This document shows, in pieces, positions 4,123-34,102 of a stretch of 64,000 nucleotides of DNA. Under the pieces are notes generated by a model. The model saw only the letters and a program-made list of their open reading frames with translations. It was not told the origin of the DNA and did not search any database. The stretch covers positions 5,682,001 to 5,746,000 of the forward strand of contig NZ_CP127385.1 in NCBI RefSeq assembly GCF_030378205.1. Reading direction: 5' to 3'. A program made the position numbers and the translations under genes. Every line of letters begins with the position of its first letter. Position 1 is the stretch's first letter. The stretch is from Bradyrhizobium sp. NP1 (GTDB lineage: Bacteria; Pseudomonadota; Alphaproteobacteria; Rhizobiales; Xanthobacteraceae).

Positions 4123-4560
4123 ATGATAGATATTGCGAGTTTTTTGCTGCCCACCGACCCCGACGCTTTTCTTCTCAGACTGTTGTCGGCACTTGCCGTC
4201 TTCTTCCTCTTTGCGTGGCTTATCCTCAGACGATGGACGAACCGGTCGGGCATAGGTGAAAGTGGATTCTCGCCCGCCGTCTCGGCTGCCCTTTTCGCCC
4301 CTGCTCTCCTCGTCGTCTACTTCATAATTTTGGTATCATTCGGACTCGAACATAGAGTGTCCGCTTATGCCTTTGTTGTGTTCTTCTTCGGCCTTCTGTT
4401 CGCGCCGACCTTCCTTCTGCTGCTCCCAGTCGGCATCGCGTCCATCGTCATGGCCCGGCGAAAGAAGCCCATTTCAAATTGGAAGCTGTGGCTTGTGCTC
4501 GCGACGTGGTTATTGTCGTCGTGGGGACTGCTTGCGGCATTTTTTAGTCAAGGTCACTGA
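4123..4560 (+). CDS. Small polytopic membrane protein, tandem copy 2
   Basis: 145 residues, the same length as the protein at 3149-3586 and clearly homologous along its whole length, with near identity over the last ~60 residues (APTFLLLLP, GIASIVMARRKKPISNWKLWL). About four membrane segments. The ATG lies after AATAGGGCGCT, a weak ribosome binding site. The two copies and their 5' flanks arose by direct duplication of a ~0.6 kb unit; divergence is highest in the external loop and at the extreme C-terminus. Function unknown; it could be a partner of the neighbouring lysozyme-like or exported proteins, but nothing in the sequence proves it. Confidence 0.8.
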   Translation: MIDIASFLLPTDPDAFLLRLLSALAVFFLFAWLILRRWTNRSGIGESGFSPAVSAALFAPALLVVYFIILVSFGLEHRVSAYAFVVFFFGLLFAPTFLLLLPVGIASIVMARRKKPISNWKLWLVLATWLLSSWGLLAAFFSQGH

Positions 4561-4636
4561 GCCGTGACCGCGTGCTGAGTACGCGCACCGTTCTGGTCGA
4601 GCGGTCGGGGTCCGACTTTGTGCGAAAGACCGGCTT

Positions 4637-5717
4637 TCACTCCTGTCGTGTAAAATTCGCTATGTAGATTCTTGCGCGCACATCCGAGCAGGTTTCCCCG
4701 ACCAAAGCGCTCGCGATGGCTTCCGCCAGCGTTCGCATTTCAGGGAGAGTAGCCACGGGCTGCTCGTCCGAATAAACGACGAGCCAATTGTCATCACCGA
4801 AATATTGTCGGGTACAGGCGATGCTGTTCGCCAAATGATCGGGAACGATGCCAGGCATCTTCACCTCCGGGTGATAGTGAGAATCGCAAAGGTCCCGGAG
4901 TACGGGATTTGCAATGTCCTTGCTAACCGAATAGCCTTGGTCGATCAGCAGTATCGCTTTGTGCCCCCTTCCACTACGAGCAATGTCTAATTGCTGGATC
5001 ATGGGCCCTGGACGAACCTTGCAGACATGTGGTGGACCAACGTCATTCTGAACGGCGGCAGACGCACCCGAAGCACCTGCCAGCCGCGCCACAACGCTTT
5101 GGTACCAAGCTAGAAAATCGTCGTACCTGACGCCTGCATAGTCACCTTCGTTCAAACTGAGGATGAGCTTCTCTGGCGTTCCACTCGCGTAGAGCTCGCG
5201 ATAGGCCTCCACGATTGCCGGCTGTAGACCTAGCGACAGATATATCGGCCGCCAGGTATTCCACCGTTTTGCCGCGCACGATTGAATCGACGATGTTATG
5301 AAATTCCAGCTCATCGACAGGATCAGCCTTGAGAATATTCGAAGCCAAGCGAGCACAATGAGCGAGAAGGCATTCATCGACCGTGACATTCAAGCTGTCC
5401 GAATCGAGAACCATGATGGAATTCGGTTCGATATCAGGATCGAAGCTGCAATTACGATCGCTGGACGACAATTTCTCGGTCAGAACTCTGCCAAGAATGA
5501 TCTCATTGAGAAATCGACTGCGAAGATCGAATGACGATTTTTTCGGTTCGGCAAAGATTCGCGACGAAAGGTTGGGGCCGGTCTTGGGACGAACGTAAAA
5601 CAAACCTTGGCTATCCCCCGCCACGTCGCAGGCGGCAGGTTCGGCGACAGCGACCACGGAAATGGAGATCATGCCGGCCACAAGAAGTGAGAGCAAACTT
5701 GAACGGAACACGATCAC
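4637..5717 (-). pseudogene. Exported protein of unknown function, split by a frameshift
   Basis: GTG 5717 (GCGAGGG upstream) opens a frame with a clear signal peptide (LLSLLVAGMISISVVAVAEPA) whose product reads well to about residue 160 (GKTVEYLAADI). The continuation (LSLGLQPAIVEAYRELYASG ...) lies in another frame that runs to 4637. The total span of 1081 bp is 3n+1, so one extra base near 5235-5255, next to an ATATAT run, explains the split; the restored protein would have about 359 residues. The second half is well-formed (DQGYSVSKDIANP, FGDDNWLVVYSDEQPVA), so the damage is recent or is a sequence error. No family recognised. Its 5' flank is repeat copy C, as copy A flanks the gene at 601-1236. 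Confidence 0.7.
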
Positions 5718-28880: not shown

Positions 28881-29122
28881 GTGATGCTCCCACCGCAACG
28901 TTCGCGGCGTGAAACCTACAAAACCGCGACGTTCTCGATATCTGGCTGACCAGCAATTAGAGCCGCCATGCAAGCGATTTTGGGGAGCGGCCGGTGCGGC
29001 ACCGCGTCGAAATTGTGGCAACGTCAATTTGGGCCCGCAACTGACCCCGGCTCCGACATTCTTTTGCCCAGCGGGCGCACTTCGATCCCCCTGTGAATGG
29101 AAGTGACAGGCGGAACGTGACG

Positions 29123-31456
29123 ATGGACAAGGTGCCGAGCCGGCATCGCCGACTGGGTCGTGGCGCGGCAGCGTTCTTCGCCGCGCTGCTGGCGCTATCG
29201 GCCGTCCCGGCAAGCGCGGCTGAGGCGATCGCAGTCGAAGGCAATCACCGTGTCGAAGCCGATACAGTGCGCTCGTATTTTCATCCCGCAGCCGACGGGC
29301 GGCTCGACGCGGCGGCACTCGACGATGCACTGAAATCGCTGATCGCAACCGGGCTGTTTGACGATGTCACGGTGCGGCGCGTCGGCGACAAGATCGTGGT
29401 CCACCTGGTCGAAGCCAAGCTGCTCGACCGCGTGGCCTTCGAAGGCAACAAGAAGATCAAGGACACGGACCTCACCCCCGCCGTCGAGTCGAAGGCGCGC
29501 GGACCGCTGCAGCGCGCGACCGTGCAGGGCGACGTCGGCCGCATCATGGACGTCTACCGGCATCACGGACGTGACGACGTCAGCGTGGAGCCCCAGATCA
29601 TCGATCGCGGAAACGATCGGGTCGATCTCGTCTTCGCGATCACCGAAGGCAAGAAGACGACCGTGCATGAGATCAATTTCATCGGCAACCATGCCTTCGG
29701 CAAGCGGCAGCTCGCGGCCGTGATCAAGACATCCGCAACCAACATGTTGAGCTTCCTGACTGGCGGCGACGTCTACGATCCCGATCGCGTCGCCGAGGAC
29801 CGCGAGCAGCTGCGGCTCTATTATCGCAACCACGGCTACGCCGACGCCAGCGTGTCGGAGGCCCGCGCCGAATACGATCCGGCCAGCCGGGGCTTCACGT
29901 TGACCTTCGTCCTCGATGAGGGACCGCTCTATCACTTTGGCGACATCGGCATCGTCTGCAACGTTCCAGGCCTCGACGCGGAACGGCTGCGCCGGCGACT
30001 GCTGGCCCGCAGCGGCGCCGTGTTCGACGGCAGCGCCCTCGACAAGACCACCGACGCGCTCGCGATCGAGATGGCCAGGCTCGGCTATCCCTTTGCCCAC
30101 GCTGAACCGCGCATCACCCGCGACGCCATCGGCTCAAAGGCCGACGTCGCCTTCGTCATCGACGAGGGAAAACGGACCTATGTCGAGCGCATTGAGATTC
30201 ACGGCAACAGCCGTACTCGCGACTATGTGATCCGCCGCGAATTCGATTTCGGCGAAGGCGACGCCTACAACAAGACGTTGATCGACCGTGCCGAACGTCG
30301 CTTGAAGAACCTGAACTACTTCAAGACCGTCAAGATCACGACCCGGCCGGGCTCGACGGCGGACCGCATCGTGCTCGACGTGGAGACCGTCGACCAGTCG
30401 ACCGGCGATTTCAACATCGCCGGCGGCTATTCGACGACCGACGGCTGGCTCGGCGAGATCAAGCTCGGCGACCGCAACTTCTACGGGACCGGCGATGCCG
30501 TGCAGACGACGTTCATGTACGGCCAGTATTCGCGCGGCGCCGACCTGTCGGTGACCGATCCATCGATCTTCGGCAACCGCATTTCCGGCGGTGTCGACAT
30601 TTTCGGCAAGCAGACGGTCGCCAACACCTACCAGTCCTATGGCATCGACACCTACGGCACGACGTTCACGCTCGGCATGCCGATAACGGAAGAAACCAGC
30701 ATCGGCTGGCGCTACTCGATCTACAACCAGAACGTCACCCTCGACCCGACCTCGCTCGCCGCCCCGGCGTCGCTGCCGATCCAGCAGGCGGCTGCAACCG
30801 GTCCGCAATGGGTCTCGGACGTCGGCGACACCATCACCTACAACACGCTCGACAACAACAAGATGCCGACCAACGGCATCAATTCGCAGTTGCGACAGGA
30901 CCTCGCGGGTCTCGGCGGCGACGTGAAATTCCTGAAGACGACCGAAGACGTGCGCTACTACCAGGCGATCAACGACGATCTGGTTGGGCTGGTGCGTGGC
31001 CAGGGCGGCTACATCACGGGCTGGGGCGGCCAGCAGGTGCCGCTGACCAACAGCTTCTTTGGCGGCCCGAGTCTGGTGCGCGGTTTCGCACCCAACGGCT
31101 TCGGTCCGCGCGATCTGACGCCCGGCACAACCATGGACAATGTTGGCGGCAGCATGTACTGGGCGACAACGGCTGAACTGCAGAGCGCGATACCCGGCGT
31201 TCCCCAGGAATACGGCCTGCGCGCGTCCGCTTTCGTCGATGCCGGCAGCGTGTTCCGCTACAACGGTCCGACGACGTTTCCCGGCTCGGCCCAATCGCTG
31301 CAGGTGGCCAACAACAACGTGGTGCGGTCCTCCGTCGGTGCCGGGCTGACCTGGGCCTCGCCATTCGGGGCGCTGACGGTCAATTACGCCGTGCCCCTCA
31401 CGAAAGCGTCGTACGACGTCGTGCAGCGGCTGAACTTCAACGCCGGGCCGTTCTGA
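29123..31456 (+). CDS. Omp85/BamA-family outer-membrane assembly protein
   Basis: 777 residues from ATG 29123 with a signal peptide ending ASAAE. Five POTRA domains can be traced by their strand signatures: AIAVEGNHRVE, RVAFEGNKKIKD, EINFIGNHAFGK, FGDIGIVCNVPG and VERIEIHGNSRTRD. The 16-stranded barrel follows, with the L6 motif VRGF (LVRGFAPNGFGPRDL) and a C-terminal Phe. BamA inserts beta-barrels into the outer membrane. The usual neighbours (rseP, lpxD, fabZ, lpxA) are absent, and it sits next to unrelated genes, so it is probably a second, non-housekeeping copy. Confidence 0.92.
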   Translation: MDKVPSRHRRLGRGAAAFFAALLALSAVPASAAEAIAVEGNHRVEADTVRSYFHPAADGRLDAAALDDALKSLIATGLFDDVTVRRVGDKIVVHLVEAKLLDRVAFEGNKKIKDTDLTPAVESKARGPLQRATVQGDVGRIMDVYRHHGRDDVSVEPQIIDRGNDRVDLVFAITEGKKTTVHEINFIGNHAFGKRQLAAVIKTSATNMLSFLTGGDVYDPDRVAEDREQLRLYYRNHGYADASVSEARAEYDPASRGFTLTFVLDEGPLYHFGDIGIVCNVPGLDAERLRRRLLARSGAVFDGSALDKTTDALAIEMARLGYPFAHAEPRITRDAIGSKADVAFVIDEGKRTYVERIEIHGNSRTRDYVIRREFDFGEGDAYNKTLIDRAERRLKNLNYFKTVKITTRPGSTADRIVLDVETVDQSTGDFNIAGGYSTTDGWLGEIKLGDRNFYGTGDAVQTTFMYGQYSRGADLSVTDPSIFGNRISGGVDIFGKQTVANTYQSYGIDTYGTTFTLGMPITEETSIGWRYSIYNQNVTLDPTSLAAPASLPIQQAAATGPQWVSDVGDTITYNTLDNNKMPTNGINSQLRQDLAGLGGDVKFLKTTEDVRYYQAINDDLVGLVRGQGGYITGWGGQQVPLTNSFFGGPSLVRGFAPNGFGPRDLTPGTTMDNVGGSMYWATTAELQSAIPGVPQEYGLRASAFVDAGSVFRYNGPTTFPGSAQSLQVANNNVVRSSVGAGLTWASPFGALTVNYAVPLTKASYDVVQRLNFNAGPF

Positions 31457-31511: not shown

Positions 31512-31814
31512 TCACCCCGTTATGAAGGCGAACAGGTCGGCATTCAAACGGTCCTTGTGCGTGACGAAAAGACCGTGCAGCGCCCCCTCATAGACTTTCA
31601 GCTGCGCGTTCGGGATCAGGGCCGCCGTCGGCCGGCCGGTGAGCTCGATCGGAGCGGACGCATCCTTGTCGCCGTGAACGACGAGCACCGCAACGGAAAT
31701 CTTCGGCAGCTCCTTTCGGAAATCCGTCGCCGTCATGGTTCGGTTGCACTCGACCGCAACACGGAGCGGGGTACTCAGCATCAGCTGCTTGATCCATTCC
31801 TGCTCGCGGGTCGA
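31512..31814 (-). pseudogene. C-terminal remnant of an alpha/beta-hydrolase
   Basis: Only the last ~100 residues are left: WIKQLMLSTPLRVAVECNRTMTATDFRKEL, then VLVVHGDKDASAPIELTGR (acid-residue strand of the triad) and EGALHGLFVTHKDRLNADLFAFITG (His). This is the C-terminus of a haloperoxidase-type esterase; the nucleophile elbow and N-terminal two thirds are missing. An in-frame TAA at 31815-31817 lies just upstream of the homologous part, so the breakpoint is near 31815, immediately before the next gene. An ATG at 31781 could give an 89-residue peptide, but it would lack the catalytic Ser. Confidence 0.7.
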
Positions 31815-31839: not shown

Positions 31840-32391
31840 TCAGGGACGCGCCGTCACAAACCCGTAGATCAGGGCCAGCCGGTCGAGACATTCGCGAAAA
31901 CGCCGCGAGAAATAGTCCTTCCAGCGCTGCGTCTGCAGCCCGCGCCGGTCTCCGATCTGCTCCATGGTCATTCCCATGATCAGCACCTCGTGCACCAGCA
32001 CCGCGCCGTCGGTGCCGAGTTCGCGCTCGATGCGGTTCAGCCGCTGCGCCGCCTGGCGCTGGCCCTCGGTGATCGGCTCCCGCATCCGTGCGCCGTCGAC
32101 ATGGTCACGTCCGGGATCGACCGCCTGCGGACCACGCTCAGCCCTTTCCCAGTCGTTCTGGAACGCCCGGCCGCCCTGATATTGCGCGTCGTCGATCTGC
32201 CCATGCGCGTGAAGCCGCCCGAGAGGGTCGTTGCGGATCGAACGCAGCGCCACGACCTTCCCCCCCGGATCGAGCGCCAGGGGATCGTCGATCTCGACCG
32301 TCGCCACCTCGGCATTGAGCGGCAGGTCTCGCGAACGCCGGTCATGCAGCTTGGCGATGCGGTAGGACTTGTTCCGTTTGACACGTGGCAC
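31840..32391 (-). CDS. DNA-binding-like protein with C-terminal HTH (phage/sigma-like), unknown role
   Basis: 183 residues. N-terminal basic segment, then DPLGRLHAHGQIDDAQYQGGRAFQNDWERAERG, a helical core seen in a group of alphaproteobacterial hypothetical proteins, and a C-terminal helix-turn-helix-like stretch (MTMEQIGDRRGLQTQRWKDYFSRRFRECLDRLA) that resembles sigma-70 region-4/phage regulator forms. It lies 33 bp downstream of the GcrA-like gene on the same strand and is probably co-transcribed, so it would fall under the same S24 repressor. Function not established. Confidence 0.65.
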   Translation of the reverse strand: MPRVKRNKSYRIAKLHDRRSRDLPLNAEVATVEIDDPLALDPGGKVVALRSIRNDPLGRLHAHGQIDDAQYQGGRAFQNDWERAERGPQAVDPGRDHVDGARMREPITEGQRQAAQRLNRIERELGTDGAVLVHEVLIMGMTMEQIGDRRGLQTQRWKDYFSRRFRECLDRLALIYGFVTARP

Positions 32392-32424
32392 GTTGATACT
32401 CCTGCTGCCTTGGGGTTTCGGTGG

Positions 32425-32955
32425 CTAGGCCGCTTTCACCAGCCGCAGCACGACCGGCGCGGCGCCGCGCTCCGATCCGAGCCCGGGGTCACGGGTTAGA
32501 CGGAAGTGCGCCGTGCAATAGCTTGAGCCCTTCCGTCTCGGATGGCCGCAGAAGGTGATGGGTTCGCCGTCCTTGTCGCCGCCGTACGGGTAACGGCAAT
32601 CGCCGGCTTCGAGCTCGACGAGCGGAACGAGCCGCGGCCTGATGCCGACACAACGGAGCTTGACGGGTTCGGCGTGGTGTATTGCTGGTGTCGGCTCGGT
32701 CTTTGCAGCAGCGCCAGCGCGGCCTGCCCGGTGCGGCCGTGGCGGCCTCGTCTGAGGTGGCACGCGCTGCGGGCTCGCCGGCTTCGCCGGCCCCGTGAGC
32801 CCCATTCGCTTGCTGCGGCCAATCGTGGCGTTTCGTGTGTAGTTCGTTCCAAACCTCTCGTTGATGGTCTTCGCGATCTCCGAATGGGACAAGCCTTTCG
32901 CCATGAGCTCGCGCAGCGCGTCGGAATGCTCCGGCGCCCAGTTGGTCGCTTGCAT
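32425..32955 (-). CDS. GcrA-family cell-cycle regulator-like protein
   Basis: 176 residues from ATG 32955. The N-terminus is the GcrA DNA-binding domain: a tryptophan-containing helix (NWAPEHSDALRELMAKGLSHSEIAKTIN) and TRNATIGRSKRMGL, matching the TRNAVIGKxxRLGL signature. A Pro/Arg-rich linker leads to the C-terminal CRYPYGGDKDGEPITFCGHPRR...YCTAHF domain, which in GcrA contacts sigma-70 region 2. GcrA activates promoters holding methylated GANTC sites. This is likely an accessory copy: it sits divergent from an S24 repressor, with a repressor-type operator in its promoter spacer (TTGACT 33045-33040, 17 bp, GAAATT 33022-33017). Confidence 0.85.
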   Translation of the reverse strand: MQATNWAPEHSDALRELMAKGLSHSEIAKTINERFGTNYTRNATIGRSKRMGLTGPAKPASPQRVPPQTRPPRPHRAGRAGAAAKTEPTPAIHHAEPVKLRCVGIRPRLVPLVELEAGDCRYPYGGDKDGEPITFCGHPRRKGSSYCTAHFRLTRDPGLGSERGAAPVVLRLVKAA

Positions 32956-33018
32956 GAATTTTGCCTTTGTACGCGACGGATATGCGGGCTGATCCCGATT
33001 CCGGTGCAGGCGGAGTAA

Positions 33019-33035
33019 TTTCTGATATTCCGAAA
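33019..33035. promoter_or_regulatory. Operator O1 of the S24 repressor, over the gcrA-like promoter
   Basis: TTTCTGATATTCCGAAA fits the dyad TTTCTGA-N3-TCAGAAA found twice downstream (33768, 33799) with one mismatch in the arms. It lies inside the spacer and -10 of a minus-strand promoter, TTGACT (33045-33040) with GAAATT (33022-33017) 17 bp away, which drives the gcrA-like gene. Binding there would block RNA polymerase. Confidence 0.7.
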
Positions 33036-33051
33036 TGAAAGTCAAGCTTGA

Positions 33052-33068
33052 TTTCGGATAATCAGAAT
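33052..33068. promoter_or_regulatory. Operator O2 of the S24 repressor, over its own promoter
   Basis: TTTCGGATAATCAGAAT matches the same dyad with arms TTTCGGA and TCAGAAT. Its centre is 33 bp (about three turns) from the centre of O1, allowing two dimers to bind the same face. It fills the spacer of a plus-strand promoter TTGATT (33048-33053) / TATGAG (33072-33077), spaced 18 bp, in front of the repressor gene: autoregulation. Confidence 0.65.
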
Positions 33069-33108
33069 TGCTATGAGTAGAGTGGATTCGAAAGCCGGAG
33101 CGCCTGCC

Positions 33109-33747
33109 ATGCTTGACGTCGTGATGATCGAACGGGGGCTGAAGAAGCCGGGCAAGACCAAGGGTGGCCTCGCGCTGGCGATGGGCGTGCGCCCGGGCGC
33201 GGTCTCCGAAATTCTGGCCGGACAACGGCTGATCAAGGCTTCCGAGATCGACGCCATCATCGCCTATCTGGAACTGAACGCGGTGCCGATCATGGGACGG
33301 GTCGGCGCCGGCGCCTCCATCGAGCCCGAGCACGAGCAGGTGCCCCCTGAAGGGCTCGGCGATGTCGAACTGCCCTTCCCGATCTCGGAGGAAACCGTCG
33401 CATTCGAAGTATCAGGCGATTCCATGCTGCCGAAATACGAGAACGGCGACATCATCGTGGTCTATCGCGAACAACGCCATCCGCTCGCGAGCTTCTATGG
33501 CGAGGAGGCCGCAGTGCGGCTGAGGACGGGCGAGCGCTATCTGAAGACCATCGAGCGCGGAAAATCCCCAAACCTCGTCAACCTCACCAGCTTCAACGCC
33601 AAGCCGATCAGCGGGGTGAAGCTGGAATGGATCGGGGAAATCTGCGTAACCCTGCCGCGCGGCCAGATCGAGCGGCTGCGCGCCAGATCCGCGAGCCGCG
33701 CTCGAAAGGCGGCAAGGCCTGCGGATGGCCGCCCGCCCGAGAAGTGA
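33109..33747 (+). CDS. S24-family (LexA/CI-type) self-cleaving transcriptional repressor
   Basis: 212 residues from ATG 33109, preferred because GGAG lies 8 bp before it and a promoter ends at 33077; ATG 33073 would overlap that promoter. Residues ~15-58 form an HTH (GGLALAMGVRPGAVSEILAGQ). The C-terminal S24 domain has the catalytic Ser105 (VSGDSMLPKYENGDI) and Lys146 (GERYLKTIE), with a possible self-cleavage site at the Ala-Gly in GRVGAGAS (residues 63-70). Such repressors are inactivated by RecA filaments after DNA damage. Four matching operators flank it, two in front of the divergent gcrA-like gene and two before the 91-residue gene, so it is the centre of a small regulon. Confidence 0.88.
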   Translation: MLDVVMIERGLKKPGKTKGGLALAMGVRPGAVSEILAGQRLIKASEIDAIIAYLELNAVPIMGRVGAGASIEPEHEQVPPEGLGDVELPFPISEETVAFEVSGDSMLPKYENGDIIVVYREQRHPLASFYGEEAAVRLRTGERYLKTIERGKSPNLVNLTSFNAKPISGVKLEWIGEICVTLPRGQIERLRARSASRARKAARPADGRPPEK

Positions 33748-33767
33748 AGCTGGGTACCACTGAGCGG

Positions 33768-33784
33768 TTTCTGATTTTCAGAAA
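33768..33784. promoter_or_regulatory. Operator O3 (perfect palindrome)
   Basis: TTTCTGATTTTCAGAAA, arms TTTCTGA and TCAGAAA with a 3-bp centre. The identical 17-mer recurs at 33799-33815, centres 31 bp apart. Lies upstream of the -35 box of the promoter for the 91-residue gene, where it may add cooperative binding to O4. Confidence 0.75.
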
Positions 33785-33790
33785 TTGGGC

Positions 33791-33819
33791 TTGACTATTT
33801 TCTGATTTTCAGAAATAAT
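33791..33819 (+). promoter_or_regulatory. Sigma-70-type promoter of the 91-residue gene, probably leaderless
   Basis: -35 TTGACT (33791-33796), 17-bp spacer, -10 AATAAT (33814-33819). The start of transcription would be about 7 bp downstream, i.e. at or next to the A of the ATG at 33827, and no Shine-Dalgarno sequence is present (GACCCC precedes the ATG). The mRNA is therefore predicted to be leaderless. The spacer is occupied by operator O4. Confidence 0.7.
33799..33815. promoter_or_regulatory. Operator O4 in the spacer of the 91-residue gene's promoter
   Basis: Second exact copy of TTTCTGATTTTCAGAAA. It lies between TTGACT and AATAAT, so repressor binding would exclude RNA polymerase completely. 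Derepression would follow repressor self-cleavage. Confidence 0.75.
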
Positions 33820-33826
33820 CGACCCC

Positions 33827-34102
33827 ATGCAATACTTCGTGGTGATGATCGACTACGGCAGGCGCGGTCGCGAGGCGGTGGTCGATCCAGAGGTCACGCG
33901 GCGCGAAGTGGTCTCGCGCGTCACCTCTGGCGAATACAAGAACATCAGCTTCATCCACGAGATCGTGGATGCCTGCGTCGAGGACGTCACCGCCGAAATC
34001 CTCAAGGAAGCCGCCCTCCCCGAGCCCGCGCCCGGTGCCGCCGAGCTGCAGGCCAATCACTTCGACCATCTCAGGGATTTGCGAAAGCACGAGAGCGTCT
34101 GA
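33827..34102 (+). CDS. Small protein under S24 repressor control, unknown function
   Basis: 91 residues, soluble, no signal peptide. Begins MQYFVVMIDYGRRGREAVVDPEVTRREVVSRV, with a later acidic helical part (HEIVDACVEDVTAEILKEAAL) and an end with His and Asp residues (QANHFDHLRDLRKHESV). No family recognised, though small proteins of this type are common next to rhizobial regulators. Its promoter contains two perfect repressor operators and no ribosome binding site, so expression should be tight and induced when the repressor is cleaved. A role in the DNA-damage response or as an anti-repressor is inference. Confidence 0.75.
   Translation: MQYFVVMIDYGRRGREAVVDPEVTRREVVSRVTSGEYKNISFIHEIVDACVEDVTAEILKEAALPEPAPGAAELQANHFDHLRDLRKHESV

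Follow-up and report, generated by a model that had tools for sequence, protein, structure and literature searches.

Organisation of the locus

A 64,000-nt stretch of the Bradyrhizobium sp. NP1 genome (NZ_CP127385.1, assembly GCF_030378205.1, positions 5,682,001-5,746,000 of the forward strand), referred to here as the window and providing the coordinates used for the locus, contains a compact regulatory module at 31840-34102. From left to right this comprises a gene for a DUF6456 protein of 183 residues (31840..32391, minus strand), a gcrA-like gene encoding 176 residues (32425..32955, minus strand), a gene for an S24 repressor of the LexA/CI-like type (33109..33747, plus strand; 212 residues) and p91, which encodes a 91-residue protein (33827..34102, plus strand). 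The gcrA-like and DUF6456 genes are the proximal and distal members, respectively, of a divergent operon. On sequence grounds, the CI/LexA-like repressor is shown to lie between two sets of putative operators, which are conserved throughout the genus at the promoters of the repressor gene itself, of the gcrA-DUF6456 operon and of p91.

The operators are 17-bp dyads of the form TTTCTGAN3TCAGAAA, all given here on the plus strand. An earlier sequence-only reading of this DNA had placed four of them at the promoters of the gcrA-like gene, the repressor gene and the 91-residue gene, and both the positions and the assignment are confirmed. O1 (33019..33035), with one mismatch, lies downstream of TTGACT (33040..33045, minus strand), the likely -35 box of the gcrA-DUF6456 operon. 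O2 (33052..33068), with two mismatches, lies between the likely -35 and -10 boxes of the repressor promoter, where the -35 box is probably TTGATT (33048..33053, plus strand). The -35 boxes of these divergent promoters and their weak -10 boxes were read by eye only and were not listed by the promoter scan. On the other side of the repressor gene, O3 (33768..33784) and O4 (33799..33815) have no mismatches; O3 is upstream of the p91 promoter (TTGACT-17-AATAAT, 33791..33819, plus strand), which the scan did list, and O4 is inside its spacer. A further match in the scan was ATGAAA-16-GATAAT at 33035-33062.

Distribution and conservation of the operators

With up to three mismatches the dyad occurs seven times in the window against 1.05 expected, a number reached by none of 100 shuffles. 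Across the whole 7.71-Mb genome the exact 17-mer is found in two places, both of them the p91-side sites of the locus; with up to two mismatches it is found in 10 places, four at the locus, compared with one for the reversed pattern. The random scatter of the 17-mer considered in the sequence-only reading is not seen, exact copies being confined to the locus. A looser 15-bp core, TTCNGANNNTCNGAA, is exact at seven places in the genome, four of them at the locus, and a wide operator regulon was rejected on this basis. Long open frames overlap two of the three places elsewhere, and the third has no overlapping frame of at least 100 residues. At one mismatch the core has 210 matches genome-wide against 74 for the reversed pattern. 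This count seems to be inflated by a dispersed family of palindromes (such as TTGCGAATGTCAGAA and TTCCGAAGTTCGCAA), which yields many one-mismatch core matches and resembles a repeat element rather than operators.

Operators were also counted across 110 loci, a set that includes the window's own copy and some duplicates, and in which there are 98 distinct repressor genes. Between the gcrA-like and repressor genes, at least one core site (up to one mismatch) is present in all 98 distinct copies, at least two in 95 and at least three in 57; between the repressor gene and p91, 95 of the 98 have at least one and 63 at least two. Shuffled intergenic regions from all 110 loci contain 0.005-0.007 core sites per region, and no core site lies inside the repressor coding sequence at any of the 110. 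As the motif was derived from the same sequences that were counted, these numbers describe conservation and not an independent discovery. The consensus is approximately wTTCYGATWTTCRGAAw. Upstream of the repressor gene the sites are most often 33 bp apart, a third site following at 24-25 bp, and downstream of it they are most often 31-32 bp apart; the third operator, found near the repressor start in many relatives, is degenerate in the window copy. Divergent -35 boxes stand back to back (RGTCAA-N0-4-TTGAY) in 47 of the 98 distinct copies, and on the p91 side TTGAY is followed by a core site within 15 bp in 84.

Control by other regulators was also considered. LexA boxes take the form GTTCN7GTTC or GAACN7GAAC, and CtrA boxes the form TTAAN7TTAA. 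Neither LexA form occurs in either intergenic region at any of the 110 loci, nor does the CtrA form occur at any of them, and LexA control of the locus and direct CtrA control were rejected.

Conservation across Bradyrhizobium

The module is a core Bradyrhizobium locus and is not mobile. The repressor is present at E <1e-100 in 34 of 36 Bradyrhizobium genomes, the window's included, and in none of 24 genomes from other families of the order. Among Bradyrhizobium genomes that are at least 95% complete, 116 of 117 carry it; each gives a single match, at E 1e-50 or better, and two of these matches are partial. Related contigs, of which the best 80 of 175 matching were taken as genome loci, mostly carry Bradyrhizobium titles; conservation among these 80 is that of the closer relatives. 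All four genes are present in 77 of the 80 and are colinear with the window in all 77, while p91 is kept in every one. The three exceptions (L055, L089 and L090) have lost the gcrA-like and DUF6456 genes and retain the repressor, O2 and p91. Median dN/dS values of close pairs are 0.03 for the repressor, 0.11 for the DUF6456 gene, 0.14 for p91 and 0.26 for the gcrA-like gene, indicative of purifying selection. In a draw of 198 genomes from the family, the DUF6456 protein had matches in 11 listed Bradyrhizobium and in 12 others, the latter distant at 21-45% identity; 155 of these genomes gave no match, and the prevalence in the genus was taken instead from the draw of 117.

The surroundings are far less constant. 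A BamA-like gene lies within 1.5 kb of the DUF6456 gene in 30 of the 80 loci, and the major facilitator superfamily gene of the window (at least 80% identity) is near the module in three. Because the flanks vary while 77 of the 80 loci are colinear, the four genes stay together as their neighbours change. A mobile element was rejected, since the module belongs to the genus core and the gene names read beside it are not those of phage genes. Travel with prophage or plasmid genes, a possibility raised in the sequence-only reading, was likewise not borne out by any linkage seen, although the parts of the module have phage relatives.

Several side observations concern this region. In the window, the BamA/Omp85-like gene (787 residues, named by eye; 29093-31456, plus strand) is convergent with the DUF6456 gene, and between the two is an 89-residue open frame (31512-31781, minus strand) that by eye resembles the C-terminal end of an alpha/beta hydrolase and is probably a gene remnant. 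In L055, an FtsZ-like open frame of 363 residues (4214-5302, read by eye) stands in place of the lost gcrA-DUF6456 pair. The DUF6456 gene is in two overlapping pieces, as if frameshifted, in L063 (4576-5125) and in contig C118 of genome G163.

The S24 repressor

The repressor combines an N-terminal HTH_3 helix-turn-helix (HTH) domain (PF01381, 3.4e-5) with a C-terminal Peptidase_S24 domain (PF00717, 3.1e-12), the architecture of a cleavable S24 protein. Its most likely start is the ATG at 33109, which gives 212 residues; similarity to most relatives begins there, and the numbering of Ser105 and Lys146 fits this start. A Ser-Lys dyad together with an Ala-Gly (or Cys-Gly) site are the defining residues of cleavable repressors of the LexA/CI/UmuD-like type. 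Here the presumed cleavage site, Ala67-Gly68 (codons 33307..33312, plus strand), and the presumed catalytic residues, Ser105 (33421..33423, plus strand) and Lys146 (33544..33546, plus strand), to which the sequence-only reading had drawn attention, are invariant at all 110 loci. Self-cleavage is plausible because of this invariance and, from the active-site and cleavage residues only, we infer that RecA may be the trigger. Its C-terminal portion shares 50% identity with a Microcystis phage Mwe-JY08 repressor annotated as LexA-like. No solved structural relative of the repressor was found by sequence at E 0.01.

The GcrA-like protein

A full-length domain match to PF07750 (8.3e-39; 133.9 bits, curated cut-off 26.9) makes the GcrA-like protein a member of the GcrA family. 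It is, however, only the third best of five PF07750 matches in the genome, at 133 bits against 204 for the host's best GcrA, and the NCBIfam GcrA model gives it 70.8 bits against 160.8 for the latter, neither reaching the cut-off of 280. An orthologue of the cell-cycle regulator should be the best match of its genome and should group with the host GcrA, and the module protein does neither. Instead, it appears to be a phage-type paralogue. In a tree of 17 rows the module GcrAs join the GcrA of phage L166 with support of 97/97. L166 is a long branch, and its place was flagged by the tool as uncertain. When the two longest phage rows are left out, the grouping keeps its support, at 97/98. The approximately unbiased (AU) test, for which the groupings were chosen once the first tree was known, rejects placing the module proteins either with the two host GcrA proteins to the exclusion of the phages (p-AU 0.014) or with the host's best GcrA alone (p-AU 0.005).

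An insertion within the HTH is common to the module GcrA and five of seven phage GcrAs (L158, L162, L166, L174 and L175), but the two full-length GcrA proteins of the host, like phage rows L165 and L171, do not have it. The module protein is well conserved in its C-terminal cysteine-rich region, the sigma-binding part of GcrA, which aligns with a solved GcrA fragment.

The DUF6456 protein and p91

The DUF6456 protein scores 26.2 bits against PF20057, just under the cut-off of 26.3, and 26.5 bits in the genome search. Profile-profile comparison with the gafZ family gives E 2.2e-7, with 21% identity across 129 aligned columns, and structures of the Q21 antiterminator occupy the top seven rows of the second structural search made with its predicted model. 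By these comparisons, the protein seems to be distantly related to GafZ, an activator of gene transfer agents (GTAs; PMC9638019, PMC11150451), and its model resembles the phage antiterminator Q21. In a GafYZ operon the DUF6456 protein has the DnaA-like HTH protein GafY beside it; here the neighbour is the GcrA-like protein.

For p91, no Pfam, NCBIfam or PHROG match was found with E <0.1. Its predicted model, of moderate confidence (mean pLDDT 75), is a small alpha/beta protein and not an HTH, and the fold search was uninformative (best Foldseek E 0.12). The sequence-only reading had a GcrA paralogue and an HTH protein released together by the switch. The paralogue stands, but the 91-residue protein is not an HTH by its model; the HTH protein meant was probably the product of the DUF6456 gene, the fourth gene of the range.

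Phage relatives of the module

In ppBeUSDA76-2, a phage record with host B. elkanii, the DUF6456 protein is 46% identical, and the terminase gene comes about 0.6 kb after the gene that encodes it. This record also has a DnaA-HTH gene (PF08299, 6e-28) and, in the opposite operon, a p91 relative adjoining an ERF recombination gene. Four IMG/VR contigs carry DUF6456 relatives at 62, 60, 51 and 40% identity. A terminase match lies 1-2.5 kb downstream of the gene in L153, L154 and L155, in the last just under the Pfam cut-off, and none was seen by eye in L156. Thus, terminase follows DUF6456 in four of five phage loci. The check for terminase near GcrA-like genes covered phage L173 (the same contig as L158), L174 and L175. 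All three genes have a similar pre-terminase place, and Pfam confirms the terminase in two of these loci. In viral contig L171 (1698-2611), a GcrA-like gene immediately adjoins a DnaA-HTH-like one (28.9 bits, cut-off 31.5), a third pairing of putative late-activator parts.

Relatives of p91 have recombination genes as neighbours in phage records L131 and L132, an early-operon position, and also occur in 16 IMG/VR viral contigs. One of these, L157, has the repressor, gcrA and p91 together with the operators of the module, and is probably a bacterial fragment. No phage with the complete four-gene module was found in the phage and IMG/VR searches, and with L157 set aside the exact operator core is absent from the 22 phage loci scanned.

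Gene transfer agents and known systems

GTA_TIM (PF13547), a marker of RcGTA-type elements, is absent from this genome and present in one of 36 Bradyrhizobium genomes, a metagenome-assembled genome that is 80% complete (G035), compared with 18 of 24 genomes from other families of the order. In a draw of 100 genomes from the family, strong DUF6456 matches (E <1e-40) are found in 66, GTA_TIM in 61 and both in 59; none of the four Bradyrhizobium in this draw has either. From these counts the genus seems to have neither the usual GTA nor the usual gafZ, and to keep its distant DUF6456 protein in a different setting. A search for a target cluster of the module covered GTA_TIM, tail sheath and, in this genome only, the HK97 capsid, and found none. 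A tailocin was rejected as the target, tail sheath being present in only five of 31 genomes, so that there is no universal tailocin. The only HK97 capsid match of the genome sits in a cluster near 5145000-5163500 (L135, L136) with portal-, terminase-, tape-measure- and integrase-like frames, all named by eye; the cluster was likewise read by eye as an ordinary prophage.

In lambda-type phages a CI repressor is found with a Q antiterminator. The module resembles lambda CI/Q and phage 21 Q in its cleavable-type repressor, in the possibly Q-like predicted fold of the DUF6456 protein and in the pre-terminase position of its phage relatives. It differs in that its repressor would control the late-activator operon directly and in that no late genes are attached to it.

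By analogy, the nearest functional analogue of the module repressor is Caulobacter RogA. RogA, an HTH-S24 repressor similar in size at 213 residues (PMC9632790), controls an operon of two activator genes, gafYZ; the product of the second contains a sigma-like HTH and has DUF6456 proteins as relatives (PMC9632790, PMC11150451). Key cleavage residues are reported there to be missing from RogA (PMC9632790), whereas the Bradyrhizobium repressor, set against this published description, keeps the Ser/Lys dyad and the Ala-Gly site. The Bradyrhizobium system further differs in having a GcrA-like protein where Caulobacter has GafY, a repressor gene that is adjacent and divergent, p91 as a third target, and no GTA marker in 35 of 36 genomes. 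The gafA/gafYZ loci of Hyphomicrobiales, located beside sufE and mucR (PMC9638019; L144-L149), share a homologous DUF6456 domain by the profile comparison already described, but have another genomic place and another partner gene, and the identity is just the 21% over 129 columns. The GcrA homologue gp222 of phage phiCbK (PMC3556154) is likewise a GcrA family protein, carried by a phage; the module GcrA differs in sharing its operon with DUF6456 and in having the gene of a CI-like repressor next to that operon. The literature searched, which left subscription papers mostly outside, contained no account of GcrA paired with DUF6456, and the main texts of the papers found using the term DUF6456 make no mention of GcrA.

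Proposed function of the module

We consider it likely, though well short of certain, that the module is a phage lysogeny switch, running from a CI-like repressor to a late activator, which was domesticated by an ancestor of Bradyrhizobium. Repressor dimers on O1/O2 and O3/O4 would hold all three promoters off, with autoregulation, until activated RecA stimulated self-cleavage at Ala67-Gly68 through Ser105 and Lys146. The released operon would then supply a phage-type GcrA, acting as a sigma-70 cofactor that aids promoter opening, and a DUF6456 protein that, like GafZ and phage Q, might load at target promoters and allow RNA polymerase to transcribe long late operons by read-through. Together the two proteins would correspond to GafY and GafZ, with the GcrA-like protein in place of the DnaA-like HTH of GafY, and the target genes would lie away from the locus. 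As the module is kept in almost every Bradyrhizobium genome examined and has no phage genes beside it to turn on, it may drive a programme that has not been recognised.

A special case of the domesticated switch names that target. The module may be the master regulator of an unrecognised Bradyrhizobium GTA or phage-like particle encoded elsewhere, as RogA and GafYZ are in Caulobacter, and this is possible, if on the whole doubtful. On this view, cleavage of the repressor would free the GcrA-like and DUF6456 proteins to turn on the genes of the particle. The distant homology of the DUF6456 protein to the gafZ family and the likeness in type and size to RogA (PMC9632790) point in this direction. 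So does a report that reads from phage particles cover a Bradyrhizobium genome evenly except in insertion-sequence regions, a pattern called “reminiscent” of GTAs (PMC10127595); the text examined names no genes for this packaging. Against it are the near absence of GTA_TIM, its one occurrence being in an incomplete genome, the location of the only HK97 capsid match in an ordinary-looking prophage with an integrase-like frame, and the failure of the three families searched, tail sheath among them, to reveal a target cluster. It is unlikely that the repressor is retained as immunity against superinfecting phages that share its operators, with the remaining genes as passengers. Such a role would account for the repressor being the most constrained gene and for its persistence where the gcrA-DUF6456 pair has gone, but not for the purifying selection on p91 and DUF6456, the retention of p91 at every locus or the lack of an exact operator core in the scanned phage loci.

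The sequence-only reading had instead proposed a DNA-damage switch over a GcrA-type cofactor acting on methylation-dependent cell-cycle promoters of the host. The wiring it described agrees with the sequence, but the link to the cell cycle is not supported. This functional reading is less likely than the domesticated switch, and we regard it as quite improbable. The intact S24 active site and the PF07750 match with its conserved cysteine-rich region agree with it, and one observation weighs against the domesticated switch: between the repressor gene and p91, GANTC is about twice as frequent as by chance (1.24 per region against 0.54 shuffled). Upstream of the gcrA-like gene, however, GANTC occurs at close to the chance level (0.71 sites per region, 0.56 in shuffles), the protein is closer to a phage GcrA than to that of the host, which has a better GcrA of its own, it carries the insertion within its DNA-binding HTH, its operon partner is DUF6456, and the pair is lost in three of 80 loci. 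That the locus is merely a decaying prophage remnant without function is scarcely credible. Its parts do have phage relatives, and the gcrA-DUF6456 pair is lost or apparently frameshifted in some loci, but presence in 116 of 117 genomes, colinearity in 77 of 80 loci, conserved operators and dN/dS values well below 1 already largely refute it.

Implications

Taking the domesticated switch a step further, we suggest very tentatively, as a speculation more probably wrong than right, that the module is a genus-wide master switch triggered by DNA damage, in which a phage-type GcrA and a Q/GafZ-like antiterminator together activate an unlinked, unrecognised programme, either a new kind of GTA or a lysis and particle programme. 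GcrA-like and DnaA-like HTH proteins would then be interchangeable partners in a wider alphaproteobacterial family of late-gene activators.

Late-gene control of alphaproteobacterial GTAs has so far been known through GafA and GafYZ. A second architecture is suggested by the locus described here, in which an apparently still cleavable repressor would govern a GcrA-like and a DUF6456 protein. It is retained throughout a nitrogen-fixing genus of major importance, from which the usual GTA seems to be missing. If the working proposed here is correct, the genes that Bradyrhizobium activates, perhaps in response to DNA damage, would come to light on deletion of the repressor, and the GcrA proteins borne by phages would gain a possible role other than steering the host cell cycle.

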